Below the pieces are notes generated by a model, which saw only the letters and a program-made list of their open reading frames with translations, searched no databases and was not told the DNA's origin. This document shows positions 2-13,848 of a stretch of DNA of 51,916 nt, piece by piece. This stretch comes from Methanobacteriota archaeon. Its GTDB lineage: Archaea > Thermoplasmatota > Poseidoniia > Poseidoniales > Thalassarchaeaceae. Within the stretch, counting starts at the first letter, position 1; the number at the start of each line of letters is the position of its first letter. Where the stretch lies: positions 1 through 51,916 of the forward strand of contig JAAZXW010000003.1 of the NCBI GenBank assembly GCA_014239955.1. Direction: 5' to 3'. Made by a program: the position numbers and the translations under genes.

Positions 2-2434
2 TGGCCATCTCCAGTGCTCCCGATAGGAGAGTGGTCCTTCCCAGTGGCCTTCGCCGAGGGGGGGTACACTTCAGAAATACCAGTCATCTCCGCCAGTCAC
101 GTAGGCAAGGGGAGGATGCTCGGCTATGGCCATGAGAGCTGGGTCTACGGCAGTGGTGGCGTCGATGAGACTGCTTTCTCACTCAGAGCAGTGGAGTGGG
201 TGTGCGTGGCCAATGCAGACGTCGGTCTGGCTTATGGTGCCGGATTCGACGGTTTCCAAGACGATTTGGAGTCAGAGGGTCACACAGTTCACAACTCCGT
301 TTCTCCAGACAACCTGTCCGGAGTGGACTGCTTTCTGGACGAGTTCTGGAACGGCCATGATGACGTTGACAACGCGAACATCGTCACATTCCTCCTCGGT
401 GGAGGTGGGGTGATAATGGGCGGCCATGCATGGTACTGGTCATATTCCAACACAGACGTGGCCCACAACTATCCTGGGAACAAGATAGCCAAGGAAACCG
501 GACTTTTCGTATCCAATGCTTGGGGCTACAACGAGATTGACATGAGCGAGCTCCCCCATGAACTCACTCGGCCCCGAGCCGCTATCGACGCAATCAGAGG
601 GGATCGAATCGAAGGACAGTCTCTCTCCACCGACGAGGCCTCAATAGCCGATTCGACCCTCTCACTATGCACGAGCGTGGTCTCACTCGACTTCGATGAC
701 TTCTGGGCACCTCTTAGGGAGGTCGTGAACCAGACTGGATGGACCGTGATAGAGTACGGGACCCTCTGGGACGACGTAGGCTACAATCTCGGAGAGGACC
801 CAGTGGCGGACTCCCTCCTGAGGGTCGAGACTGCCCTGACTCAGGGCCTCCCAGCCAATGAGCTCCCCTCGCACCCCAGTCACCAAGAGTTCCCGGGGGA
901 GGTCCCAGGCAATGCCAGTAGGGTCATGCGAACGGTCTCGGTGGATGGAAACCAGAGCGGACTACCGTCGAACTTCGGCTACTCCTCAGCGAGAGCCCAC
1001 CTCAGGATGACCACAGGGACCTACGCAGCCCCGGGAGAGGTGGTCACAGTAACACTCCCCCCCCAGGTAGTGGACTCGGGTACCTACATCCTCGTTGGGG
1101 CCCATAGTGATAGCCTGTGGGGCAAGGAACAGTTGCACCGGCATCCGGAGATCGTTCGTTGGTGGTACGTGGATGGCATCGAGATGGAAGTGGGAAACGC
1201 CTTCGGCGGGCCGATCTACGTGGCCATCGAACCGGGCTCCAGCCTAGGCGTATTCGACGTGACGATCTCAAATGCCGTGGAGGCCCCGACCTACACTCAT
1301 GGGGAGACCAGCGTCGAGGACTGGGTCCAGCAGGGCCGCCACTCCCCAGCCCCATGGGCGGAGATAGGGAGCGACCAGTTCATCCTCTCCGTCCCAAGCC
1401 ATGAGATCAGGGACCTCGAAGACCCAGACGACCTCATGGAATGGTGGGGCCAGGCACTCGGCATGGAGCACGAGCTGTACGGCTTCTTGCCATGGAGCAG
1501 GGTCGAGAGAGCCGTCTTCGATGCTCAGATCTCAGCCGGATGGATGCACTCCGGATACCCGTTCATGGCTCACGACCTCAGTGTTCCATCGGTGGTAAAC
1601 GTCACTCACATGAGCCAGGAGGGCGATTGGGGGATGTTCCACGAGCTCGGGCACAATCACCAGTGGATGCCCTCAACCCTGCCCGGGACGACCGAGACCG
1701 GTTGCAACTTCGCAAGTGTCTACCTGATGGAGGACCTAGTCGGGGTGGACGGCCACGGGGCCATCTCCCCAGAACAGCGGGAGACTAGGACCAGGGCCTA
1801 CTTCGACAACGGGGCAAACATCGCGGATTGGTCGGTCTGGGTCGCGCTGGAGACATTCCTCATGGTCAAGGAGGGGTGGTCATGGGCAGAGATCACATCA
1901 GCCCTCTCGGTGTACTACGACCTGCCTGCAGCGGAGGTCCCATCCACCGACGACGAGAAATTCAACGCATGGGTGCTGCATCTCTCGAACTCCACCGGAT
2001 TCAACCTAGCCCCTTACCACGCTGCTTGGGGGTTTCCACTCTCCCAATCGACGTTCGACGCACTGGGCCACCTCCCCGTTTGGGTGGACGATCCGCTGAG
2101 GGGCGAGTTCTACGAGTACCCAGCAATCCTCAGGGACCTGCACTCCCCCAGCATCTCGGGAACGAACTCAACCGACATCTCATGGCTGACCTATGACAAC
2201 GGGACAAACATCACCCTCACGGCTTTCTACGGGACGACCGATGGCGGGACGCAGCCCGCAGCCTGGTCGAACAATGTCGTTGTCGGCTCGACGCAAGTCG
2301 GCAACGAGACTCTGGAGATTACCGGGCTTTCGTGCTGCGGTACCGAGTACCATGCCCGGATTAGGGCGGCCAATGATGCTGGTGAGACGTGGTTCGGGCC
2401 GATTTCGTGGACCACTGACTACCTGGAAGACTGA
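2..2434 (+). CDS. Secreted M60-like (enhancin-type) zinc metallopeptidase with C-terminal Fn3, 5'-truncated by window edge
   Basis: The reading frame is open from the first bases, so the gene very probably begins upstream; a GTG at 14 is only the first possible start inside the window. Numbering from that GTG, a zincin motif HELGH lies at residues 543-547. It is followed by a Glu at about 561 in a GTTETGCN context, matching the M60/enhancin pattern HExxH-x(8-28)-E that is known to bind catalytic zinc. Upstream, the 'G-Y-A-x-P-G-E-V-V-T-V' stretch near residue 335 resembles the Ig-like domain that usually precedes M60 catalytic domains. The last ~90 residues look like a fibronectin type III domain (ending 'AANDAGETWFGP'). 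Family members cleave mucin or other glycoproteins; a secreted degradative role is inferred. No C-terminal membrane anchor is visible. The stop overlaps the convergent acyltransferase gene by 16 nt. Confidence 0.82.
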   Translation, partial: WPSPVLPIGEWSFPVAFAEGGYTSEIPVISASHVGKGRMLGYGHESWVYGSGGVDETAFSLRAVEWVCVANADVGLAYGAGFDGFQDDLESEGHTVHNSVSPDNLSGVDCFLDEFWNGHDDVDNANIVTFLLGGGGVIMGGHAWYWSYSNTDVAHNYPGNKIAKETGLFVSNAWGYNEIDMSELPHELTRPRAAIDAIRGDRIEGQSLSTDEASIADSTLSLCTSVVSLDFDDFWAPLREVVNQTGWTVIEYGTLWDDVGYNLGEDPVADSLLRVETALTQGLPANELPSHPSHQEFPGEVPGNASRVMRTVSVDGNQSGLPSNFGYSSARAHLRMTTGTYAAPGEVVTVTLPPQVVDSGTYILVGAHSDSLWGKEQLHRHPEIVRWWYVDGIEMEVGNAFGGPIYVAIEPGSSLGVFDVTISNAVEAPTYTHGETSVEDWVQQGRHSPAPWAEIGSDQFILSVPSHEIRDLEDPDDLMEWWGQALGMEHELYGFLPWSRVERAVFDAQISAGWMHSGYPFMAHDLSVPSVVNVTHMSQEGDWGMFHELGHNHQWMPSTLPGTTETGCNFASVYLMEDLVGVDGHGAISPEQRETRTRAYFDNGANIADWSVWVALETFLMVKEGWSWAEITSALSVYYDLPAAEVPSTDDEKFNAWVLHLSNSTGFNLAPYHAAWGFPLSQSTFDALGHLPVWVDDPLRGEFYEYPAILRDLHSPSISGTNSTDISWLTYDNGTNITLTAFYGTTDGGTQPAAWSNNVVVGSTQVGNETLEITGLSCCGTEYHARIRAANDAGETWFGPISWTTDYLED

Positions 2435-3495
2435 CCCAGCCTCAGGATCGCCTCTAGCGAGAACCAGGGAATCGTCCTCTCGTGCACAGCTGCGAGAGGT
2501 ATCCATGCCAGGGTATGCAGGATTGTTACGAAGAACGCAGGTACAAGGGCGAGCCTAGGTTCTCCCTCCATCATCAAAGCCACTGCTCCCAAGATCGCGA
2601 AGTGCGCGACATAGATCGTCAGTGACAACCTCCCCGCTGGTTCCAGGAAAGATAGCCTATCTCCCATGAATGGCTCTCCTCCCGTTTCCTCATCACCCTC
2701 AAGAATCCTGAGGGATAGCGCTACCATGGTTCCCGAGACAATCAGGAATGGCATGCTAGCGGGGAAGAATGTGAGCACTGCCTCACCTGAAGTATTGGCC
2801 CAGTCAATTTCCTCAATCACGGAAAGCGCCAATGTCACAGTGGTCGCAAGGACGCCAAATACAATGCCCCTCTCTCGTGTAGTGGTATCCGCACTCAGGT
2901 CATGGAGTACAGTGCCAAGAAGGACGTAGAACATCCATGGGACCACGGGGTATGTGCCGTTCAAGAGAAGCCTTGCGAACCACTCCTCTGCACTCTCAGC
3001 ACCAACCCTCTCGAACCATCCAATATCTGGTTCGGATAGGCTACCCAATAGCAACGGAGAAATCCCGAAGGCAAGCATTGCTAGGGACCTATTCCTCGTA
3101 GTGGCTCTGACAAGTACTGGACATAGAGCAGCCGATATGGCAAGTAACGTCAGAACACCAGGGGTGTGCCATTCGAACCTGCCCCCCCTCTCTACGTTCA
3201 GAAGGAGATTTACCAGAAGTTGGCACAGGCACAACAGGGCCACCCTAGGCATTATCCAACTGGTCCATTGCACGGTGGAATGGCCTTCTGAGAGCCTCCG
3301 AGAAGCACTCCTGTACATCCCCCACCCAGAAATGGTGACGAACATCGGTGCAGCCATGCCTCCGAAGGCAGCCGCAACGAATGCTGCAGGATGGCCCACC
3401 GTGATCCCTTCGGGAGGTACGATTGCCGCCGTATGCACCTCCACCATGCAGAGGATCGCTATGGCTCTCATCCTGTCTATGTGTCTGAGCCTCAT
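2419..3495 (-). CDS. Multipass membrane acyltransferase (HGSNAT/DUF1624 or acyltransferase-3 like)
   Basis: A protein of about 358 residues with roughly ten hydrophobic segments. The N-terminus reads RHIDRMRAIAILCMVEVHT, matching the 'R-x-x-x-x-D-x-x-R-G-x-A-I-x-x-M-x-x-x-H' opening of heparan-alpha-glucosaminide acetyltransferase/DUF1624 and acyltransferase-3 families. These move acyl groups across a membrane onto sugars or other polymers. A following 'PMFVTISGWGMYRSA' segment is also typical (family 'lF.ltsG'). ATG at 3495 is preferred because the family motif begins at once and a GGGTG-type ribosome site precedes it; an upstream in-frame TTG at 3546 would add 17 polar residues. The gene follows the CD36-like gene by a short gap on the same strand and is probably co-transcribed. 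The acceptor substrate is unknown. Confidence 0.72.
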   Translation of the reverse strand: MRLRHIDRMRAIAILCMVEVHTAAIVPPEGITVGHPAAFVAAAFGGMAAPMFVTISGWGMYRSASRRLSEGHSTVQWTSWIMPRVALLCLCQLLVNLLLNVERGGRFEWHTPGVLTLLAISAALCPVLVRATTRNRSLAMLAFGISPLLLGSLSEPDIGWFERVGAESAEEWFARLLLNGTYPVVPWMFYVLLGTVLHDLSADTTTRERGIVFGVLATTVTLALSVIEEIDWANTSGEAVLTFFPASMPFLIVSGTMVALSLRILEGDEETGGEPFMGDRLSFLEPAGRLSLTIYVAHFAILGAVALMMEGEPRLALVPAFFVTILHTLAWIPLAAVHERTIPWFSLEAILRLGQSSR

Positions 3496-3570
3496 CCTAG
3501 CACCCGCCACTGTGGACGAATCCAGTTCGGCAGTAATAGGATTCAATGCTTCCGGAGAAGCACCGACTCC

Positions 3571-6306
3571 CTATTCTTCTTTGTCATTCCCGACAAGGCC
3601 AAACAAGGCTCTTGCATTGGGGTCTGAAAAACCGTAACCAAGCAATGCTATGGATGCGGTGTAAAGGACGGCTATGAAGTAGTGAACGTAACTCAGGGGT
3701 GCCCCAGCATCCCCTCCGAAGTTGGTCCAACCCATCGGCCCTAGGTTATCCGAAACCGCTCCAGTGAAGTCCTCCGCACTCTCGTCATCGATCTCGCTGA
3801 AAACGTGGATTTCGAATACTGGCATCGACTCCGTGCTATCTTCCGAAAGGTCCGGGCCCACGAAACCGGGTCCTCGTGTGTCCAAGTGGAAAGTAACCTT
3901 GACCTTCCCATACATTATCGCTGTAGTAACAGGTTCGACCTTCAGGTCTATGTCTGCCGAGAGGTATACAGGTAGTGCACCAGGAATCACGTCGACGTAG
4001 GTGGAAGAGCCAATCAGCTTCCCTTGGATCTGTGTATTCTCGGGCTCAACTGTCACTGAATGCTCTACCATTTCGATTCCCTTGTATGTCGTCTTGCTCC
4101 CCACTTCGGAGGTCGCAATTGCGTATCCTGCCACATTGAAGCTGAATGGGTCATTAGGTGTCGCCAACGAACCGGCAGTACCCACGAGAGAAGTATCATT
4201 ATTTCCGGCATGAGCAGATAGGAGGCCACTGGCCCCTTCCTCTCTGTGAGGTGCTCGCCAAGTCAAGTGCTCGGTCATTCCGTACACCTGCCCTTCCTCA
4301 CATTCCAGGTCATAGCCGATGAACGCACCATCTGATTCGTAGTCGAAGTCGCAAAGGCCATTTCCGTCCGAATTGATGTATCCCTGGGCCATTCTCTGGC
4401 CCATGGTGTCGCCCTTGGTGCTCATCTTGTATACTGACCAGTCTCCGGTGCTGATTCCATCAGATCCATAGAATGTTGCATTCGTCTCAAGGCTGTTCCA
4501 GGAGAAGAATCCGAAGTACGCGCTAACAGCATCGTCCCAGCCGTAGAGCCAGTTGCTGATTGGCATCGAGTAGTAGGGGGTGTTGCCAGTGACGAAGTTC
4601 AGCAGAACCGGCATCACCGTGTCGAAGTAGAAGTTGGCGACCCAGTCCCTAAGTGCGTGTGCTGCATCCTCGGTTATCCCGTACAGGGAAGCGACATAGG
4701 CATCGTCCCAAACGTGCTGCACGCCTTCTGCATCAGGAAGGCTCATCCCAGACAGCTCACCATACATGAATGACCCTGGGAATGATGACTTGAGTCCAAT
4801 GTCCGGATCGTTAAGGATGAAATCGGATTGCTCCTGAGTCAGCTCTGCCATACCTGCGAAACCGTCTCTGTTAAGCCCTATTGGGATGTATATCCCTCCC
4901 AATGGGTCGTAGTCCCCGAATGCAGTCAGCCACCAATCGTTGGAGGACATGGTCCCCTGGCCACCAGTCAGAATCAACTCGAACTCAGTAGGGGAGCCAG
5001 TTAGTCCCAAGCCCACCCAAGGCTCGACGTATCCCGCAATATCTGCTATCGACAGCAGACCGACGTTGTAGGTCGTCATTGCTCCGAAGTAGTCCGCACT
5101 CTGGAGTGGAAGGAGGAGCCCAACTACCATTCCAGGCAGAGGGATCCCGCTTATCTCGAAGGAGGTGAGGAGGCCCACACTCTCGTTGAATAGGAGGTTT
5201 TCCAGAGTAGCAGGGTCATTCATGGTCACTCCGCTGACTTCTGCGAACCTCTCCTTCAACTGAGGAGTCTGGTTGTTGACCTCTGCTCCTCCGCCCTTCT
5301 CAACGAACTTGGAGGCTGCGAGCGAGTAAACCGCCATATCCATATGGTATGTCCACAGTTCTCCGCCGTAGCCATATAGTTCGGCTCTGGCAAAAGTATT
5401 GTTCAAACAACCATCATCTACGGCACCCGTCAAGCCACTATCGGGAGCGCAAGGGGCCCCCATTCCTGTGATCAGGACTGGTCCAATGTCACAGGTTAGA
5501 GCAATACAGTTTCCATTGCCATCATCCGCATTGTAGAAGATATCTTTGATTTGCTGTGATGTAGCGTTGCCAGAACCAAACGAGAATGTCAAGTCCTCGC
5601 TAATGCCCAGCGACTCATAGGTGCCTACGATTACTTGCTCCTCAGCGCTCATATTCCCGAATCTACTTCCCCCAAGTGCTTCAGCCATGGCCCCTATGTC
5701 CTCGGAGGCCCAGATGCTAGGTGCTCTGTTGGAGAGGTCGAATTCGACCATCTGAGCTGCGAACATCGCCTTAGCGAATATCTCCCCATACTCGATGCCG
5801 CTACCCATTCCAGCTATCCTCTGGGTGTTCCAGAGGATGTTGATCTGATTGACTACGGTGTCACCGGATACCGATGCGTGCTCCACTCCATCGTCATCCG
5901 CCCAGGTGCAATCCTCGCACCACTCGAAAGTCTCGTATCCCGAGTATGTGATCGAGCCCCCGTCATAGTCGAATTCGATGACCTCCCGGGTTGTGTTCTC
6001 GTAGTAGATGAATGGGCCTAACATCTCATAGGTGGGCTCAACCGTCGCATCCGCCAGTATGTCCTCCAGATTGGCGATCGAGTTGCCGAAGTACGCCTTC
6101 TCCGATGAGGCGTTGATCCAGTCGTCCCCGAAGTCAGCCGTGTAATCCTCATTACCATCGTCATCCAATCCATCATAGCCGCTTGCCACTGTTTCTGCTA
6201 CGGTTCCTTCAATAATTCCGTCTATAGTCCCTGTAACTGCTATTCCGACGTTTACCATCAGTAGAAGTGCTCCGATTACCATTGCAATAGTTCCCTTGTT
6301 TTCCAT
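3571..6306 (-). CDS. CD36/LIMP-2-like membrane protein with two terminal transmembrane anchors
   Basis: A protein of 911 residues with one N-terminal TM (about 6-28), a large acidic ectodomain and one C-terminal TM (about 873-893) followed by a short tail. This is the hairpin topology of the CD36/scavenger receptor B family. Three stretches resemble that family in order. Residues ~68-130 run from 'N-x-E-D-I-L' through 'EMLGPFIYYE' to 'GGSITYSGYETFEW' (family: 'NpeEvl', 'E.GPYvYrE', 'nGtVsY.e..tf.f'). Residues ~148-158 read 'GDTVVNQINIL' (family: 'D.itt.NiPl'). Residues ~768-790 read 'STYVDVIPGALPVYLSADIDL' (family: 'fLdvePlTG..l.a..rlQin'). It is about twice the usual ~470-500 residues, with a long central insertion. 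ATG 6306 is chosen over ATG 6342 for its GGTGA ribosome site. Family members bind lipids or lipoproteins; function here is unknown. Confidence 0.62.
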   Translation of the reverse strand: MENKGTIAMVIGALLLMVNVGIAVTGTIDGIIEGTVAETVASGYDGLDDDGNEDYTADFGDDWINASSEKAYFGNSIANLEDILADATVEPTYEMLGPFIYYENTTREVIEFDYDGGSITYSGYETFEWCEDCTWADDDGVEHASVSGDTVVNQINILWNTQRIAGMGSGIEYGEIFAKAMFAAQMVEFDLSNRAPSIWASEDIGAMAEALGGSRFGNMSAEEQVIVGTYESLGISEDLTFSFGSGNATSQQIKDIFYNADDGNGNCIALTCDIGPVLITGMGAPCAPDSGLTGAVDDGCLNNTFARAELYGYGGELWTYHMDMAVYSLAASKFVEKGGGAEVNNQTPQLKERFAEVSGVTMNDPATLENLLFNESVGLLTSFEISGIPLPGMVVGLLLPLQSADYFGAMTTYNVGLLSIADIAGYVEPWVGLGLTGSPTEFELILTGGQGTMSSNDWWLTAFGDYDPLGGIYIPIGLNRDGFAGMAELTQEQSDFILNDPDIGLKSSFPGSFMYGELSGMSLPDAEGVQHVWDDAYVASLYGITEDAAHALRDWVANFYFDTVMPVLLNFVTGNTPYYSMPISNWLYGWDDAVSAYFGFFSWNSLETNATFYGSDGISTGDWSVYKMSTKGDTMGQRMAQGYINSDGNGLCDFDYESDGAFIGYDLECEEGQVYGMTEHLTWRAPHREEGASGLLSAHAGNNDTSLVGTAGSLATPNDPFSFNVAGYAIATSEVGSKTTYKGIEMVEHSVTVEPENTQIQGKLIGSSTYVDVIPGALPVYLSADIDLKVEPVTTAIMYGKVKVTFHLDTRGPGFVGPDLSEDSTESMPVFEIHVFSEIDDESAEDFTGAVSDNLGPMGWTNFGGDAGAPLSYVHYFIAVLYTASIALLGYGFSDPNARALFGLVGNDKEE

Positions 6307-6440
6307 AGTTTCACCCAAACGTCCGAAAAGGGGACTAGGCATAAACCATTACACTAGGTTTAGCCACGGATACCTGATGCCCAAAGAACCACCCATTGTA
6401 AGATAAGGTTCATTTTGACATTCATGGGCGATGGCTATGG

Positions 6441-6517
6441 GGACCCGTAGCTCAGTTGGTTAGAGCGCTCGGCTCATAACCGAGTGGTCATCGGTTCAAA
6501 TCCGGTCGGGTCCACCA
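6441..6517 (+). tRNA. tRNA-Met (CAU anticodon), 3' CCA encoded
   Basis: A complete cloverleaf can be drawn. The acceptor stem pairs GGACCCG (6441-6447) with CGGGTCC (6507-6513), with A as discriminator and CCA at 6515-6517. The anticodon stem CTCGG/CCGAG encloses the loop CTCATAA, giving anticodon CAT. The T arm is ATCGG-TTCAAAT-CCGGT. No intron is present. It is probably the elongator Met tRNA because the acceptor stem lacks initiator features, but a CAT anticodon can also belong to a lysidine/agmatidine-modified tRNA-Ile2, which sequence alone does not fully exclude. Confidence 0.96.
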
Positions 6518-6530
6518 TAATTGAGACCTG

Positions 6531-6537
6531 TTATATT
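6531..6537 (+). promoter_or_regulatory. TATA-like box for the secreted protein gene at 6599
   Basis: TTATATT sits 14 nt after the tRNA-Met CCA end. An archaeal start of transcription about 25 nt downstream (~6560) would leave a ~40 nt leader containing a GGGG(AT) ribosome-binding stretch at 6587-6590 before ATG 6599. Inferred from spacing only. Confidence 0.45.
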
Positions 6538-6598
6538 GACACATTTCGGGCCCGTCTTGGGCGAAGCCTCAAATATGGTTCAATCAGGGGATTTAGTG

Positions 6599-7534
6599 AT
6601 GAGTGCATCGTTTAGAGTACCATTGGTGATACTGGTTGTCTATTTCATGAGCCTCTGCGCGGGCGTAGCTGCTGTACAAGCGCAGACTTCTCCTGACGTC
6701 TCGCTTACCTGTGACCAACCGGCCCCAATAGAGGTATACCCCGGTGCCCTAAGATCCACTATCATATACTGCACACTGTCCAATCCAACTACCTTCTCCG
6801 AGAAGGTCGACCTGACGTATCAGCAAGGGATAATTTCCGTTGCAGGCCCAGGTTCGGCTACAGTTCCACCTGGGGACACATCCTTCCAAGTGGCCGCGAG
6901 AGCTGATTTGAGGCAGCCCGAGGGTCAACAGGTAGTCACAATCACTGCTACTGTGACACAATGGAATGGTGCGCCAGTCAGTTCAGCAACATCTCCTACT
7001 GAGGCGAAGGTGATGACCGTATTCAAGCAGTTCAGTAGACTCAGGGTCGGCGCCGAGTTGGCTTTCATCCAACTCAGGCCGAAAGTCGACTACACTCTGG
7101 TGTTCGACGTGTATAACGACGGCAATGCAAGAGACAAGTTCAACGTGGAGATACAGAACTACGACGAGTTGAATGACGAGGGTTTCCAACTGAGTTTACC
7201 CCTGATATCGCAGGAGATTGACTCGCTCGCACCTCCCGAGAAGTTCAGGGTGCAGATGAGAACCCCGAAGAATCAGGGCTGGACTGACAAGTACTTCAAT
7301 CTCCAGTTCAAGGCGTCTTCGGAGTATTCAGTGAGATCCGAGGGCGTCCCCAATTATCAGGTTCAAGTCATGACCATCTACATCAGAGGCGTTTACCTAC
7401 CAGGTTTCGAACTAGTCGGGACCACGATGATGGCCGCCCTTGCAGGTGCCGCGATTGGCAGGAACTCCTCTAATGACGAGTTGCTAGTCGATGACAGGGG
7501 GAACGTCACGCCTCTGGATAATCGGTTATTCTAG
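6599..7534 (+). CDS. Secreted/membrane-anchored protein with Ig-like domains, unknown function
   Basis: About 311 residues. ATG 6599 is preferred because it opens directly on a signal peptide or N-terminal membrane segment (VPLVILVVYFMSLCAGVAAV, then 'QAQT'), with a purine-rich ribosome site a few bases upstream. An in-frame TTG at 6521 would put 26 charged residues before the signal. The mature part resembles NEW3/CARDB-type beta-sandwiches: 'PGALRSTIIYCTLSNPTTFSEKVDL' style segments and 'LVFDVYNDGNARDKFNVEIQN' at ~170-190, as seen in archaeal extracellular proteins. The C-terminus holds 'LPGFELVGTTMMAALAGAA', a hydrophobic stretch introduced by PGF, followed by a ~25 residue polar tail. PGF before a C-terminal TM recalls PGF-CTERM sorting signals, but the expected Arg-rich end is missing, so a simple TM anchor is equally likely. 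Confidence 0.72.
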   Translation: MSASFRVPLVILVVYFMSLCAGVAAVQAQTSPDVSLTCDQPAPIEVYPGALRSTIIYCTLSNPTTFSEKVDLTYQQGIISVAGPGSATVPPGDTSFQVAARADLRQPEGQQVVTITATVTQWNGAPVSSATSPTEAKVMTVFKQFSRLRVGAELAFIQLRPKVDYTLVFDVYNDGNARDKFNVEIQNYDELNDEGFQLSLPLISQEIDSLAPPEKFRVQMRTPKNQGWTDKYFNLQFKASSEYSVRSEGVPNYQVQVMTIYIRGVYLPGFELVGTTMMAALAGAAIGRNSSNDELLVDDRGNVTPLDNRLF

Positions 7535-7609
7535 TTTGTAACACACCTGGAGCCGTGAGGCAACGTATTGATAACCATCAGACAAGTGTGATAGATTCAA
7601 GGCGATTGG

Positions 7610-8818
7610 ATGAGTAAGCAGGGGCTTCTTGAAAAAATCTCCGAACAACAACCAGATTTTCTCGACGCAGAGATCAATGAGGTGCCCAAGGAGAAATTAG
7701 ATGCTTCAAGGATCGCAGCGACTCTGGTAATCACCACACTCTCACTATTAGTTTACTTCGCCATGCAGTTTGGAATATTCTTCGACTATGACTCGAAGGT
7801 GGTCGTATCTCTTTTGGCGGGGTCATTTGCCATACTTTGGCTCGGCTTCGATTTAGGGATCCCTGGGTCCCGGGCCAATTTCAGTAAAGTTACAGCTTCA
7901 CTAGTCACTGCTTCATTCCTACTTGTTTCCGTGTTGCCGGTAGTTTTCATTGCAATATTGGGAGGTGATCTCTCACTAGATTTACTAGGATACGAAGAAG
8001 ATGGTGACGAGATCACGCTCACCCTTAGGAAGAATGGCATCGGCTCAGATAGTTTTGATGCAAATCTATCTATCGAGAGACAGGGATCCATTATTTGGTC
8101 AAATTCAATTCCCTTTAAAATTGACAAAAGTGATGGGCGCGGAGATTATGCAATTATTTCAGTAGAGGTAGACGATTTCTACGAAGGAAATGCTTTCACC
8201 GGTAACCCGCAACAGCCAGAAATACCCTACACACTCTCTATCAGAGTTGATGACTTCAATTGGGAAAGGACTCTGGACTCCTCATTCCTGACTAGGAATG
8301 TTACCGGTACTGAGAGCTACGTAAGCGGAGTCTTTTCGGATGATTCCAATGACTGTCAGGATAAAGGGGAGAATTGTCTAGTGGGGGTGACTCTGATGGG
8401 ATGGGTTGGTCTAGATTCCGGATCAACCATTCCAACAAACCTGCAATTTTCCAGCTACACAGTCAATGCAGTTCTTATGGAGGAGGGCGACGTTGCAATT
8501 TCATACCCTGCCATTTCCGTGGAGAACACCGTGGCATCTTGGGCATCTTCAGATGGTAGATTTGGGTCTGGTAGTGCTACCTTCGGAGAAATAAATTCAG
8601 AAATCCGGTTCGAGGGATCCCAAATAGACCCTGACTCTGGGGGTCTGTCATACATCCCCTTGGATCACTTTGAAGAATCAGCCGGTGACTACGGTTGCTA
8701 TACATTCACTGTTGACGTCAGCCCAAGCGGCTCCGAGGACGTAGTTTCCTCAACCACATACTACGAATATTCCAACAGTAACTCCCAGGACATCTGGAAA
8801 CAAGAATCGAGCTGTTAG
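7610..8818 (+). CDS. Membrane protein with three N-terminal TM helices and an extracytoplasmic beta-rich domain, unknown
   Basis: 402 residues. A short charged cytosolic start (1-38) is followed by three hydrophobic helices at about 38-58, 66-84 and 98-120. The remaining ~280 residues are acidic and beta-strand rich, with several Cys (for example the 'CQDKGENCLVG' pair and C-terminal 'YGCYTF' and 'ESSC') that could form disulfides outside the cell. No family is recognised. ATG 7610 follows a weak GGCGATT stretch. The stop lies only 3 nt from the convergent stop of the ABC ATPase gene. The local base composition is somewhat more AT-rich than its neighbours. It may be co-transcribed with the secreted protein gene 75 nt upstream; no functional link can be claimed. 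Confidence 0.75.
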   Translation: MSKQGLLEKISEQQPDFLDAEINEVPKEKLDASRIAATLVITTLSLLVYFAMQFGIFFDYDSKVVVSLLAGSFAILWLGFDLGIPGSRANFSKVTASLVTASFLLVSVLPVVFIAILGGDLSLDLLGYEEDGDEITLTLRKNGIGSDSFDANLSIERQGSIIWSNSIPFKIDKSDGRGDYAIISVEVDDFYEGNAFTGNPQQPEIPYTLSIRVDDFNWERTLDSSFLTRNVTGTESYVSGVFSDDSNDCQDKGENCLVGVTLMGWVGLDSGSTIPTNLQFSSYTVNAVLMEEGDVAISYPAISVENTVASWASSDGRFGSGSATFGEINSEIRFEGSQIDPDSGGLSYIPLDHFEESAGDYGCYTFTVDVSPSGSEDVVSSTTYYEYSNSNSQDIWKQESSC

Positions 8819-8821
8819 GTT

Positions 8822-9559
8822 TCAGTCATTGATACTCGAGAGGAACTCCTTCATCCTCTCCGTCTCCGGCTTGTCGATAATGGAAGACGGACCCTCCTCT
8901 GCAACAAGACCTTGGTCCATGTATATGACTCGGTCAGCAACGTCTCTGGCAAAACTAATCTCGTGGGTAACCACCACCATGGTCATGCCTTCTTCCGCCA
9001 ACCCCTGAATAGTCTCGAGCACCGAACCGATTAGCTCCGGGTCAAGGGCGCTGGTGGGTTCGTCGAACAGCATTACCTCTGGACTCATCGCAAGGGCCCT
9101 AGCAATGGCGACCCTCTGCTTCTGGCCTCCAGACAGGTTTCCAGGATAAGCATCAACTCTGTCTAGCATATCTACTCGCTCCAAGACGTTCCTTGCCTTC
9201 GACTCGGCCTCTTCCTTGCCCATCCCCCTGACGTGAATTAGTCCGAGGGAAACATTGTCTATCACCCTCAGATGGGCGAATAGCTCGAATGACTGGAAGA
9301 CCATCCCGATTCTCGAACGCACGTCATTGATGTCAGATGCAGGGGTGTTGATCCTCTCGCCTTTCAGCTTGACTATTCCCTTGGTGGGCTCGATCAGCCT
9401 ATTGATGCACCTGAGGACTGTCGACTTCCCGCTTCCCGACGAACCGATAATCGCCAGAGATTCCCCTTCGGTGACTTCGAACGAGACTCCTCTTACTGCA
9501 TGGACCCCTCCAACGTAGGTTTTCTCCATGTCCTTGACACTGAGTATTATCTCTGACAT
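8822..9559 (-). CDS. Polar amino acid-type ABC transporter ATP-binding protein (GlnQ/HisP family)
   Basis: 245 residues, the standard length. Motifs are complete: Walker [10 protein letters not shown] (39-47), Q-loop Gln89, signature LSGGQ (142-146), Walker B VMLFDEP (162-168) with catalytic Glu167, D-loop SALD, and switch His199 in VVVTHE. '[19 protein letters not shown]' and '[19 protein letters not shown]' are typical of the PAAT (polar amino acid transport) ATPase subfamily. It hydrolyses ATP on the cytosolic face to drive import through the partner permease. Its ATG directly abuts the TGA of the permease gene (TGAATG arrangement), so the two are translationally coupled. No substrate-binding protein gene is next to it. 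Substrate is inferred to be an amino acid from subfamily only. Confidence 0.95.
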
Positions 9560-11923
9560 TCAAGCGCCCCCTGAGATCCCTAGCCCGGGTATCCTGGTCC
9601 TTTCCTCTAGATACCTTAGGAAGAGTGCAAGCGTCCAAGTGATTAGGAAGTAGGAAACAAGTACCATCCCCCATGTCCAGAAAACTTGGAACGTGGTCGC
9701 GACAATCAGCTTGCCCTGCCTGGTTATTTCTGCATAACCTATTATCATGGCCAAAGATGAGTTCAGCACAAGATTGACCATCTCGTTACCCAATGGTGGG
9801 ATGCAAATCCTGACTGCCTGTGGCATGACTACCAGTCTCATCGACTGCATATAGTTCAGGCCGATGCTCCTCCCTGCCTCCATCTGCCCGGAAGGTATTG
9901 CAGCGACAGCACCTCTGATGGTTTCGCACTGGTAGGCCCCAGAGTTCAGGCCGAGGGCGAAGATCGCGCTAATGTATGCCCTATCTTCCAGGATTCCACC
10001 AATTGGCCTCCTATAGGCCAGGGATTCCGGGTCGGTCTCGTAGACTACGAAAATATCAGTGAGGAAGTTCGCATTTCCTTGTAGGTATTCGAAGTTGAAT
10101 AGCATCAGACCGGGTTCCTGCATCCTCCTGCCAAGCTCGAATCCGAAGTGGATGAACATGAACTGCACGAGGAGAGGGGTATTCCGGAAAATATCAGTGT
10201 ATGCCGTCGCGATTGTGTTCAGCGGCCTGATCCCCCATGGGTTCAATGAGAATTCTGCCTTCCCCACCTTTAGGTCACGAATCGAGAAGTCCCCATTGCA
10301 GGAGAGGAAAATCCCACCAAGAACTGCGATCGCCAATCCGAGAATTATCCAAAATACAGCCGACGGAGCCCCAATCGGGGAGTAAATATGCTCCCAACCA
10401 TCTAGATTTAGCGCACTAATTTTGTCAAGATTGGATAATATCCGGTAGACTCCGAAAACAATCAATGTCATGCCTATAAATCTAATCGCGAATATGTTCA
10501 GTGGCTCACTCGCGGAAATCTGTGCTGACCTCTCTCTATAGGAAATCAAGGTGCTATCGAGGGGATTTTCTATGGGAATTCTGATGATCCTAAGAACCAA
10601 AACGGGAACTTGCAGAATGGCCCATGTTGGCACTAATGCCACCATTACCAGAAGCTGGTATCGATTGGTCTGAGCGACGTTCTTCAGAGTTATGGGGGAG
10701 GTCTTCAGCATCGATAGAATGATTCCCAGTGAGAAACCCATCAGGATTCCGAAAAAGACGATTTTGGCAGTTGCAACCAAACCGTCCATGAGCCTCTCTT
10801 TGGAGTAGTCGACGAATTGTCCGAAGTCATTGAAGTCAGCGACCTCGAATCCAACGAAATCCTCTGAGCCAGCATTCTCGGTCCTGAGGATGACTCCTCC
10901 GTCGCCGACTGCAACGCCCCTGAACCCATCTTGCATGGCGAATGCATTGAAACTAGTATCATTCGACACGGGAATCATCTGTCGAGAGACTATGTTGCCC
11001 CCATCCTTGCTCAGTGACAGGTATCCATTCGGGCCAGCTAGCATGATTTTGGATTGGGATAGGACGTTGATTGACGAGGCATCATAGTCAATCTCAGTTC
11101 CCCCTTTGACCCACTCATTACTGCCTCCTGCAGGGTACTCCCTTTCTATTTCCACTATGCTCCAAACGAATCCTACCGCGAGGCTCCCTTCTCTGGATGA
11201 TTTCAGGATATGGCCATCCTCGGAGATTGCGTATGCTCTGATGGAGCTGAAGTACTCAATGTCAACTATGTCTACTTCTGACAAAGCCCCCGGAGCATCC
11301 CGGTAATCCCATGTCTCCCCCCCATCATTAGTAGCCAGAATCAACCCACTTTCCCCTGCGATTAGGCCATTTTCCGAATCTAAGAAAGACACACTATTGA
11401 GGGAGTTAGCTGAATCGCCCCAAACGATTTCCCAGTCAACTCCCCCCTCATTGATTGTGCAAGTCCATGCAGTATTGCCAGAAACGACGACAAGACTGTT
11501 GTTTCCAGTTAGAGAAATATCTGTAATGTCGCCAATTATATCAGTACTTAGATCAGTCCAGATGCCATCATTCAGCAAAAGTACCGTGCCGTTATTTCCA
11601 GCGACTACCATTGCTCCAAAGTTTGAATCCGAAGATGTGAGGTTCTGACTAGTCTCGGACAATACTTCACTCCATGTCACCCCATCGTCACTGCTAATGA
11701 TCGTGATTCCCCCGGTCCCGAAGGCCCAGATATCATTCTCGTGGACTTCTGCGCTTAGTAAGTCGAACTCCGTTCCACTTTCCATCACTTCCCACCCACT
11801 TCGCACTTCTTGAGCGGAGACCTCGCTGATCGAGAAAATAAGGGAAAATATTGCTACTGAAACGAATAGTACGACGCCACGAGGAACTCTCCGGGCACCT
11901 TCGATAGTTGCTTCCGATGCCAT
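9560..11923 (-). CDS. Fusion: extracellular Ycf48/BNR-like beta-propeller + amino acid ABC permease (HisM/GlnP type)
   Basis: 787 residues in one continuous frame. Residues ~15-37 are a signal/TM segment. Residues ~40-345 contain repeated 'DGGxTW', 'GxxGxIL' and 'AVGDGGVILRTENAG' motifs, the hallmark of photosystem II assembly factor Ycf48/BNR-type propellers. The first permease TM is near 375-400. A ~180 residue hydrophobic region follows that is not part of ordinary PAAT permeases. The core resumes at ~580 with 'DIFRNTPLLVQFMFIHFG', then 'RGAVAAIPSGQMEAGRSIGLNY' style EAA-loop sequence near 675-690, and 'PPLGNEMVNLVLNSSLA'. PAAT permeases have an outside N-terminus, so the propeller should face outward, where a binding protein would dock. 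ATG 11923 has a GAGGGG ribosome site 5 nt upstream. Confidence 0.88.
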   Translation of the reverse strand: MASEATIEGARRVPRGVVLFVSVAIFSLIFSISEVSAQEVRSGWEVMESGTEFDLLSAEVHENDIWAFGTGGITIISSDDGVTWSEVLSETSQNLTSSDSNFGAMVVAGNNGTVLLLNDGIWTDLSTDIIGDITDISLTGNNSLVVVSGNTAWTCTINEGGVDWEIVWGDSANSLNSVSFLDSENGLIAGESGLILATNDGGETWDYRDAPGALSEVDIVDIEYFSSIRAYAISEDGHILKSSREGSLAVGFVWSIVEIEREYPAGGSNEWVKGGTEIDYDASSINVLSQSKIMLAGPNGYLSLSKDGGNIVSRQMIPVSNDTSFNAFAMQDGFRGVAVGDGGVILRTENAGSEDFVGFEVADFNDFGQFVDYSKERLMDGLVATAKIVFFGILMGFSLGIILSMLKTSPITLKNVAQTNRYQLLVMVALVPTWAILQVPVLVLRIIRIPIENPLDSTLISYRERSAQISASEPLNIFAIRFIGMTLIVFGVYRILSNLDKISALNLDGWEHIYSPIGAPSAVFWIILGLAIAVLGGIFLSCNGDFSIRDLKVGKAEFSLNPWGIRPLNTIATAYTDIFRNTPLLVQFMFIHFGFELGRRMQEPGLMLFNFEYLQGNANFLTDIFVVYETDPESLAYRRPIGGILEDRAYISAIFALGLNSGAYQCETIRGAVAAIPSGQMEAGRSIGLNYMQSMRLVVMPQAVRICIPPLGNEMVNLVLNSSLAMIIGYAEITRQGKLIVATTFQVFWTWGMVLVSYFLITWTLALFLRYLEERTRIPGLGISGGA

Positions 11924-12031
11924 GATGCCCCCTCACTCGCTGACCTCAGAGGATTTAGTCTAGCCGACCGACTTGACCGAGGAACCAACTAAGGTGTCCA
12001 GTGGGCAATATTGATGTGGGAAATCTCTCCG

Positions 12032-12952
12032 ATGCTTCTTATGGGAGAATTGTTGTACAGTGGAAAGGTAAAGCAGGTATGGAGCACAGACGACCCAGAA
12101 ATCATTGAATTCAGGTATACCAATCAGATTTCTGTCTTCGATCAGGTCATCCCCAGTCTAATACCTAGGAAGGGCGAGTCACTCAACAGGGCGTCCTGTC
12201 ACTGGTTCGGATTGATCGAGGAAGAGGGAATATGCAAGACTCATGTCATCGAGATGAATGCTCCCGACAGGGTGCTCGCAAGGCGCTTCGATGTCATCAG
12301 GGAACCGGGCTCGATTCCCAAGGACGCCGAGAACTTCTTCGTCCCCTTGGAGGTAATATGCAGGCACTATCTAGCTGGAACGGCTTGGAGGCGGTACCAG
12401 AGGGGGGATGTCACTCCCGAGCATTTTGGATTCGACCAAGGAGAGGTCCTGCAGGAGGGAGTACGACTTCCCGAACCCTTCCTCGAGGTGTCCACCAAAT
12501 TCGAGAAGTTCGATCGTAACCTCGGAAGGGAGGAAGCATTGACAATTTCCAATCTCGATCCGGAGGAGCTGGATGCTATCCTAGAGATTGTCCTGGAGGT
12601 CGATTCTGTAATAGATCGTGAGACATCGAAGAGAGGGCTAATTCACGTGGATGGGAAGAAGGAATTCGCACTGGGGCCTGGGAGAGAGCCGGTTCTTATC
12701 GACTCGTTCGGAACATTGGACGAGGATCGTTGGTGGGATGCAGAGTCTTACGAAGACGGCGAGATAGTCCAACTATCCAAGGAGGCAGTAAGGAAGCATT
12801 ACATCGAAACTGGGCACCACGCAGCACTTTACGAAGCGAGGCAGTCCAATTCTTTGGAACCCCCAATACCCGCTCTACCAGATGACATCATAGCCAGTAC
12901 GGCTGAACTATACGCAAGTATGTTCCAGCGCCTCACTGGAGAGGCACTCTGA
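12032..12952 (+). CDS. purC: Phosphoribosylaminoimidazole-succinocarboxamide (SAICAR) synthase
   Basis: About 306 residues. It condenses CAIR with aspartate using ATP in de novo purine synthesis. The family start 'LLYSGKVKQVW' (usual 'lyeGKaK.vy'), 'SVFDQVIPSLIPRKG', 'NRASCHWF', 'VICRHYLAGTAWRRYQRG' and 'SKRGLIHVDGKKEFALG' are recognisable, and 'LIDSFGTLDEDRWW' matches the conserved 'DE.. TPDSsRfW' region. It is the longer (~300 residue) SAICAR synthase form rather than the ~240 residue one. The start is uncertain among ATG 12014, 12032 and 12041; 12041 fits family alignments best, and 12032 has a GTGGGA stretch upstream. Its TGA overlaps the next ATG by 1 nt (TGATG), so translation of the aminotransferase gene is coupled. 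Confidence 0.93.
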   Translation: MLLMGELLYSGKVKQVWSTDDPEIIEFRYTNQISVFDQVIPSLIPRKGESLNRASCHWFGLIEEEGICKTHVIEMNAPDRVLARRFDVIREPGSIPKDAENFFVPLEVICRHYLAGTAWRRYQRGDVTPEHFGFDQGEVLQEGVRLPEPFLEVSTKFEKFDRNLGREEALTISNLDPEELDAILEIVLEVDSVIDRETSKRGLIHVDGKKEFALGPGREPVLIDSFGTLDEDRWWDAESYEDGEIVQLSKEAVRKHYIETGHHAALYEARQSNSLEPPIPALPDDIIASTAELYASMFQRLTGEAL

Positions 12953-13848
12953 TGGGGACCCATGAGTACGAAGAAGATCCAAGAAACGAGACGGTACTAA
13001 TCTCCGTCAATGGCGAACTATTCCCACGTAGCGAAGCAATGGTTTCCGTCTTCGATGCTGGATTCCTACTGGGGGATGGTGTCTGGGAGTCTTTCAGACT
13101 CCACGAGAGCAAACTCGTCTTCATCGAAGATCACATGGATAGGCTATTTCGAGGAGCAGCCAAACTATCCCTTGATCCCGGCAGATCCAGAGGGGAGATA
13201 AGGGATGAAATCGACAGGGTAATCACTGCAAACCAGATGCACGATCAAGTTCATCTGCGCCTGATTATTTCTAGGGGGATTAAGCCAACGCCTTACCAAG
13301 CTCCTTGGGTGATCTCATCCCCCCCAACTATCGTCATTATTCCCGAGTACAAGAAAGCCAATCCGAGAAGGTCAATAGAGGGGATACGACTTGTTTCTGT
13401 TGAAGTCAGAAGGAGCGGACCCGAGGTCCAGGATCCTAAGATAAACAGCCTTTCCAAGCACAATTGTATTGCAGCATGTATCGAAGCAGCTGAGAAGGGC
13501 GGAGAGGAGGGGCTAATGCTGGATCCACATGGTTTCGTTTCTACCTGCAACTCCACTCATTTCTTCATGGTTAAGGGCGGTGTGGTCTGGACATCGACAG
13601 GTGAGTTCTGCCTAGAGGGAATTACCAGGGGGAAGGTACTGGAGATTTGCGATAGGAACGACATACCTTTCTCTGAAAGAAACTTTACCATCGAAGATGT
13701 GAGTTCCGCCGAAGAGGCATTCGTAACCGGGACATTCGCAGGCCTCACACCCGTCGTTTCTTTTGATGGCAGACCTATTGGAGAAGGAAAGAGGGGACCA
13801 ATATGCGAACTACTCCAGAATCTCTACCAAGAACTCGTCAGGGGGTAA
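12952..13848 (+). CDS. Class IV PLP-dependent aminotransferase-like protein (BCAT/D-AAT fold)
   Basis: 298 residues. Fold type IV signatures are clear: 'SVFDAGFLLGDGVWESFRLHESKL', 'HMDRLFRGAAKL', 'HLRLIISRGI', 'EEGLMLDPHGFVSTCNSTHFFMV' and 'EEAFVTGTFAGLTPV'. The family performs transamination (branched-chain or D-amino acids) or aminodeoxychorismate lysis. The PLP lysine normally sits in 'I-K-S-L-N'; here that position is Asn165 in INSLSKHN, and the nearest candidate lysine is Lys169, one helix turn later. From memory, related proteobacterial proteins also keep this displaced lysine, so the shift looks like a subfamily trait rather than inactivation. The gene is sandwiched between purC (1 nt overlap) and a sulfotransferase-like gene. 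Branched-chain transaminase activity (ilvE) should not be assumed. Confidence 0.88.
   Translation: MGTHEYEEDPRNETVLISVNGELFPRSEAMVSVFDAGFLLGDGVWESFRLHESKLVFIEDHMDRLFRGAAKLSLDPGRSRGEIRDEIDRVITANQMHDQVHLRLIISRGIKPTPYQAPWVISSPPTIVIIPEYKKANPRRSIEGIRLVSVEVRRSGPEVQDPKINSLSKHNCIAACIEAAEKGGEEGLMLDPHGFVSTCNSTHFFMVKGGVVWTSTGEFCLEGITRGKVLEICDRNDIPFSERNFTIEDVSSAEEAFVTGTFAGLTPVVSFDGRPIGEGKRGPICELLQNLYQELVRG

Follow-up and report, generated by a model that had tools for sequence, protein, structure and literature searches.

A conserved family of Poseidoniales membrane proteins with probable homology to the CD36/LIMP-2 scavenger receptors

A membrane protein encoded by a Thalassarchaeaceae archaeon is very probably a homolog of the CD36 superfamily, and CD36-like proteins form a conserved, order-wide family of the Poseidoniales (Marine Group II). 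The gene lies in a stretch of 51,916 nucleotides (termed the window), at positions 3571 to 6342 of the minus strand (stop codon included, TAG at 3571 to 3573), and encodes 923 aa. A preliminary description of this DNA had placed the gene at 3571 to 6306; the end at 3571 was correct, but 6306 corresponds to the following in-frame Met, located 12 codons into the ORF. The assignment is based on a match to the Pfam CD36 family (PF01130) and on relatives in 256 of the 339 genomes of the class. Free-living ocean archaea would carry a relative of CD36, the animal receptor for fat uptake, with a large extra block, predicted to be helical, at the place where CD36 meets its partners.

The protein has a hydrophobic, putatively transmembrane segment near each end (aa 18 to 36, positions 6235 to 6291, hydropathy of 2.42, and aa 883 to 901, positions 3640 to 3696, hydropathy of 1.65), as expected from the two terminal membrane spans around a large ectodomain that had been described initially. 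An ectodomain between two membrane helices is the operational definition of CD36 proteins (PMC10715195), and hydropathy places it so here. Both segments were found in 30 of 32 nonredundant members of the archaeal family, the two others being a protein cut by its contig and a protein of 1059 aa in which the N-terminal segment was not found. The cysteine count is 8 in the window protein and varies from 0 to 14 across the 32 members.

Between the two helices, profile alignments delimit an N-terminal part of the CD36 ectodomain core (aa 75 to 173, positions 5824 to 6120), a central insertion (aa 174 to 585, positions 4588 to 5823), and a C-terminal part of the core (aa 586 to 880, positions 3703 to 4587), all on the minus strand. 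The N-terminal part holds the GPFIYYE strand and the NIL motif, and the C-terminal part holds WLYGWDD, which corresponds to LLWGYRD in CD36, and STYVDVIPGALPVY. Three of the four motifs listed in the preliminary description read exactly as written (E-x-x-GPFIYYE, aa 106 to 115; G-x-I-T-Y-x-x-Y-x-T-F-x-W, aa 129 to 141; STYVDVIPGAL, aa 780 to 790), whereas D-x-V-x-x-I-N-I-L does not occur in that form: the motif is D-x-V-x-x-x-I-N-I-L (aa 161 to 170), one spacer off. The insertion, also proposed at that stage, is real.

Scanned alone against Pfam, the window protein matched a single family, CD36, with an E value of 2.5e-5 over profile positions 59 to 113 (aa 89 to 144), and its score of 23.4 bits missed the curated cutoff of 26.5 bits. 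No family was matched in an NCBIfam scan of this protein, and a phmmer search of PDB sequences gave no match at an E value of ≤10. Taken by itself, the sequence of the window protein is a good hint at CD36 and no more. PF01130 was, however, matched at an E value of ≤0.01 by all 33 diverse archaeal members scanned singly (best E value, 1.6e-20), with a score of 73.5 bits for the best member listed. Since orthologs pass the cutoff, we attribute the shortfall of the window protein to divergence in its genus. The E value of the window protein and the 33/33 matches among its relatives indicate that the resemblance is more than chance and lies above background, a point that the preliminary description had left to be checked. 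PF01130 also matches a second time, past the insertion, in several genomes; in one of them (G029), residues ∼549 to 683 align with profile positions 133 to 257. Profiles of the archaeal family were also searched against PDB sequences, and LIMP-2 and CD36 occupied the top eight positions with each of two alignments (E values of 1.1e-5 to 2.2e-3 with alignment A2 and 1.6e-5 to 3.7e-4 with alignment A1). The next matches were succinate dehydrogenase with A2 (E value of 1.7) and ADP-ribosyltransferase with A1 (E values of 0.0088 and 0.12).

We then cut the archaeal alignment into three parts and compared each with an alignment of CD36 and LIMP-2 (two eukaryotic sequences) in HHalign, using 60 column shuffles per part and reversed profiles as controls. 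The N-terminal segment (14 to 173) scored 54.5 (P of 1.7e-7; shuffle maximum, 21.4) and the postinsertion segment (586 to 923) scored 35.8 (P of 4.8e-4; shuffle maximum, 21.8), whereas the insertion showed no similarity to CD36 and LIMP-2 (score of 19.0, P of 0.15; shuffle mean, 15.1; shuffle maximum, 23.9); reversed profiles scored 15 to 19. In the uncut comparison, the second match was colinear, covered CD36 residues 162 to 441, and paired LLWGYRD with WLYGWDD. The HHalign probability of the postinsertion half was only 18 to 32% (P of 0.0014 to 0.00048; 32% for the segment 586 to 923), which is expected because the eukaryotic profile consists of two sequences only, so the shuffles are the better guide. 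Thalassarchaeaceae-type rows alone (n = 16, with no Poseidoniaceae-type [f2] member and with loci L029, L078, and L072 left out) still gave three colinear matches (P of 0.0028, 0.0027, and 0.016). The ectodomain resembles CD36/LIMP-2 on both halves and in the same order, and, judged by these profile comparisons, homology is well shown independently on each side of the insertion.

Structure prediction pointed to the same family. Two AlphaFold2 models were built from 30 sequences each, one for the window protein (pLDDT of 65.0, pTM of 0.49) and, as a replicate, one for the member L052, which was worse (pLDDT of 55.4, pTM of 0.42) but gave the same Foldseek ranking. CD36 (5lgd), LIMP-2 chains, and LmcA of Mycobacterium smegmatis exclusively made up the first 17 PDB matches of both models, out of 138 for the window protein (probability of 1.00) and 135 for L052 (probability of 0.90 to 1.00), and the probability dropped to 0.06 and 0.04, respectively, at the 18th match. 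Only seven and three matches, respectively, had an E value of ≤0.001, and over the first 17 matches the superpositions were loose (rmsd of ∼5 to 15 Å, TM score to the target of 0.22 to 0.36), so Foldseek backs the family and not the details. These models, of modest confidence overall and of low confidence in parts of the barrel, support a CD36-like asymmetric β-barrel as the core of the ectodomain, the fold that was to be looked for. The PF01130 matches, the top eight PDB profile matches, and the first 17 Foldseek matches all agree with the initial reading of the gene as a CD36/LIMP-2 relative.

The insertion sits where CD36 carries its ligand-recognizing apex helices, which are replaced in the window protein by ∼410 residues without CD36 similarity, modeled mainly as helices. 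The distance between the GP and WLxGW motifs, measured in the 48 of 55 sequences that have both, is 465 to 682 residues (median, 492), compared to 89 in human CD36. This replacement does not exclude the protein from the CD36 family, because several eukaryotic members share it, as described in a survey (PMC10715195). The insertion keeps invariant residues within the archaeal family, such as G287, R319, D335, G390, and G404 (alignment A1). Internal duplication was considered as its source and was not supported (HHalign P of 0.37 against the postinsertion part, 0.21 against the N-terminal part, and 0.023 for one half against the other), with no detectable relation between the insertion and the rest of the protein in these comparisons.

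A protein search of 60 related genomes recovered a CD36-like gene in 49. The 256 positive genomes of the class (83 without a match), found with a profile of 33 members, represent 19 of its 25 genera; among genomes with at least 90% completeness and at most 5% contamination, 31 of 38 have the gene. Among the matches listed, all positive genomes fall in two families of one order, f1 (Thalassarchaeaceae) and f2 (which we take to be Poseidoniaceae). In a sample of the phylum, PF01130 was found in 101 of 389 genomes (89 above the cutoff), all 101 in that same order, and it was found in none of 14 control genomes. None of the 10 genomes of the Thalassarchaeaceae-type genus g7 (G033, G312, and G532 to G539), only one of them 90% complete, has the gene. 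None of 30 pattern matches in viral contigs was confirmed as CD36-like, and no match was found in plasmids, whether the query was an archaeal member or human CD36.

Some genomes contain two copies. G029 has two divergent CD36-like genes back to back (L120, 5422 to 8028 on the minus strand and 8115 to 10664 on the plus strand), and one of the two groups with f2 members in a quick tree. In the one-contig genome G037, the second copy is broken or misassembled, as it is split over two overlapping ORFs in different frames (L114, 7547 to 8539 and 8503 to 10236, both on the minus strand). The quick tree (55 rows, SH-aLRT only, with a long-branch warning) splits the copies into old lineages and places two copies from f1 among those of f2. 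Recent transfer or contamination was rejected on composition and context: the G+C content is 0.527 for the gene and 0.511 for the window, third-position G+C is 0.601 and ranges from 0.553 to 0.732 in five neighbors, the gene order is the same in many independent genomes, and a copy is present in the one-contig genome.

The preliminary description had also suggested that the CD36-like gene and a membrane acyltransferase form a lipid- or glycan-handling pair. A same-strand downstream neighbor is indeed present (positions 2419 to 3546, minus strand; PF01757, 70.2 bits; HGSNAT_cat [PF07786], 52 bits, above the cutoff), but the idea of a constant functional partner was rejected. In tblastn searches of 31 loci, the acyltransferase was adjacent (<300 bp) in 17 and ∼4.4 to 5.9 kb distant in 9; the other 5, of which three hold at most 1.2 kb downstream, gave no match. 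Nor was it detected in any of 10 regions sampled from nine additional genomes, seven of these regions being f2. As the acyltransferase is separated or not found in these other loci and regions, the pairing owes more to local genome history than to function. In humans, HGSNAT and LIMP-2 both reside in the lysosomal membrane, which is probably a coincidence.

The order choice-of-anchor-T protein, CD36-like protein, acyltransferase, and M60 peptidase recurs in Thalassarchaeaceae-type genomes. In the window, the M60 (enhancin-like) peptidase with its M60-like N-terminal domain (185 and 45.7 bits) is encoded at positions 14 to 2434 of the plus strand, and an M60 peptidase adjoins the acyltransferase in many loci. 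In one separated locus (L044), the genes for a lamin-tail/PLD protein and a pyrimidine-nucleoside-phosphorylase-like protein part the CD36-like gene from the acyltransferase, with a TctA-like permease upstream. The row at 2683 to 13050 of that locus, which also includes an OB-fold-like protein, perhaps serves the scavenging of extracellular nucleic acids or nucleosides. Elsewhere in the window (9560 to 11923, minus strand), an amino-acid-type ABC permease (PF00528, 52.5 bits) is fused behind a YCF48-like propeller (PSII_BNR, PF14870, 44.9 bits).

On balance, we favor the proposal that these proteins belong to the CD36 superfamily as its archaeal branch and may capture lipids at the cell surface and hand them off to the membrane; granted CD36 homology, lipid capture or transfer in itself appears fairly likely. 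The protein would be held at the surface by one membrane helix at each end, with an outer domain composed of the CD36 barrel and the apex insertion. A hydrophobic ligand would bind at the apex and pass through the putative tunnel of the barrel to reach the cytoplasmic membrane, and there it could serve as a substrate for the enzymes of fatty-acid degradation; it could be taken from seawater particles (a fatty acid or a different lipid) or be a lipid of the envelope. We infer the tunnel, the lipid nature of the ligand, and the direction of transfer by analogy; capture at the apex followed by transfer is our best guess because lipid handling is common to CD36, LIMP-2, and LmcA/PgfA and because Poseidoniales are reported to degrade fatty acids. 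Fatty acid degradation is reported to be encoded by all Poseidoniales genera (PMC6461757), and we found acyl-CoA dehydrogenase in all 16 genomes tested, including all seven tested g7 genomes. Since g7 has this enzyme and lacks the CD36-like gene, fatty-acid degradation does not need the latter. No constant partner gene was found, which counts against this proposal.

The chief rival to lipid capture keeps the fold and reverses the traffic, the protein moving envelope lipids or lipoglycans of the cell outward, or placing them on its outer face, in the manner of mycobacterial PgfA/LmcA. The presence of LmcA within the first 17 Foldseek matches of both models speaks for it, as do a weak PF11271 (DUF3068) match in one archaeal member and the failure of the gene to track fatty-acid degradation in g7, and an HGSNAT/Acyl_transf_3-kind acyltransferase adjoins the CD36-like gene in part of the family; that neighbor is not constant, however, the PF11271 match was seen in only 1 of 33 members and below the cutoff, and no MmpL3-like or lipoglycan partner was noticed, so that we consider this role rather unlikely. 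Still less probable is a receptor or adhesin in which the expanded apex would bind a protein, a glycan, or a particle surface while the barrel serves as a scaffold without lipid transfer, as in the LIMP-2–glucocerebrosidase pair. The apex sequence without CD36 similarity is the largest part of the protein, and the apex recognizes ligands in mammalian members and is the part that differs from lineage to lineage (PMC10715195), but none of our results points to a partner, and the invariant residues of the insertion argue against a fast-changing binding surface throughout.

The protein could also be an unrelated archaeal surface protein anchored by two helices, its GP-x-x-Y strand motif having arisen by chance. 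This would fit the sub-cutoff Pfam score of the window protein, its lack of a pairwise PDB match, and the poor superposition of the modest models; the PF01130 matches in 33/33 members, many far above the cutoff, the independent colinear similarity past the insertion, and the restriction of the top structure matches of two models to the CD36 family argue strongly against it, and we regard it as very improbable. Lipid capture and hand-off remains the reading we prefer, and it would make the protein a candidate lipid receptor for one of the most abundant archaeal groups of the surface ocean. Fatty acids are regarded as food for the Poseidoniales, and the source for this, in the part available, does not name a lipid receptor (PMC6461757).

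Our results suggest that the CD36 family extends beyond eukaryotes. That these proteins inform the question of its origin, as raised in the preliminary description, is a possibility only: a conserved branch in archaea, which has both halves of the core and an apex of its own, is either an outgroup for the CD36 family or a transfer event to explain. Somewhat doubtful, in our view, is a broader scenario in which CD36 is a pre-eukaryotic lipid-transfer fold, with a native Poseidoniales branch, sister or ancestral to the eukaryotic class B receptors, that captures particle lipids, and with LmcA/PgfA as the bacterial branch; within it, an ancient transfer between marine protists and archaea that carried an expanded apex is equally open. 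Full-text literature searches combining CD36 or PF01130 with archaea, Poseidoniales, Marine Group II, or Asgard, which covered few subscription papers and preprints, found no report of an archaeal CD36, in line with the preliminary description, which knew of none. Databases may already label some members automatically, because many exceed the Pfam cutoff.

Compared with CD36, SR-B1, and LIMP-2 (class B scavenger receptors, PF01130), the archaeal protein has the same succession of membrane helix, ectodomain, and membrane helix, similarity that is colinear before and after the apex, the long GPxxY strand, a WLxGW-D motif in place of LLWGYRD, and a predicted CD36-like core; it differs by its divergent sequence and by the insertion at 174 to 585 in place of the apex helices. 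A parallel for the insertion is found in protist CD36 proteins (Dictyostelium LmpA, Phytophthora, and Tetrahymena), which also have a lineage-specific apex expansion between conserved N- and C-terminal halves (PMC10715195). The same survey, covering 165 eukaryotic species, describes independent apex expansions in cnidarian, amoebozoan, oomycete, and ciliate proteins and nonmetazoan ectodomains of 413 to 2,294 aa; the word "archaea" is absent from its text.

A bacterial structural relative, LmcA/PgfA of actinobacteria (DUF3068, PF11271), has already been published: the LmcA barrel resembles that of CD36 and encloses cavities, and trehalose monomycolate or an analogue of it is a ligand of PgfA (PMC8972800, PMC9678360). 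As is predicted for the archaeal protein, for which it is a fold match with both models, it is a CD36-like β-barrel held in the cytoplasmic membrane, but LmcA is described as lacking the three-helix apex (PMC8972800), and PF01130 is by far the nearer of the two Pfam families to the archaeal proteins. The single PF11271 match, in the C-terminal half, is weak (E value of 0.0058, 16.4 bits), and none of the 33 archaeal members reached the curated cutoff of 29.5 bits, so that sequence does no more than hint at a link to DUF3068. Together, the LmcA fold matches and this weak match suggest a superfamily represented in all three domains of life.
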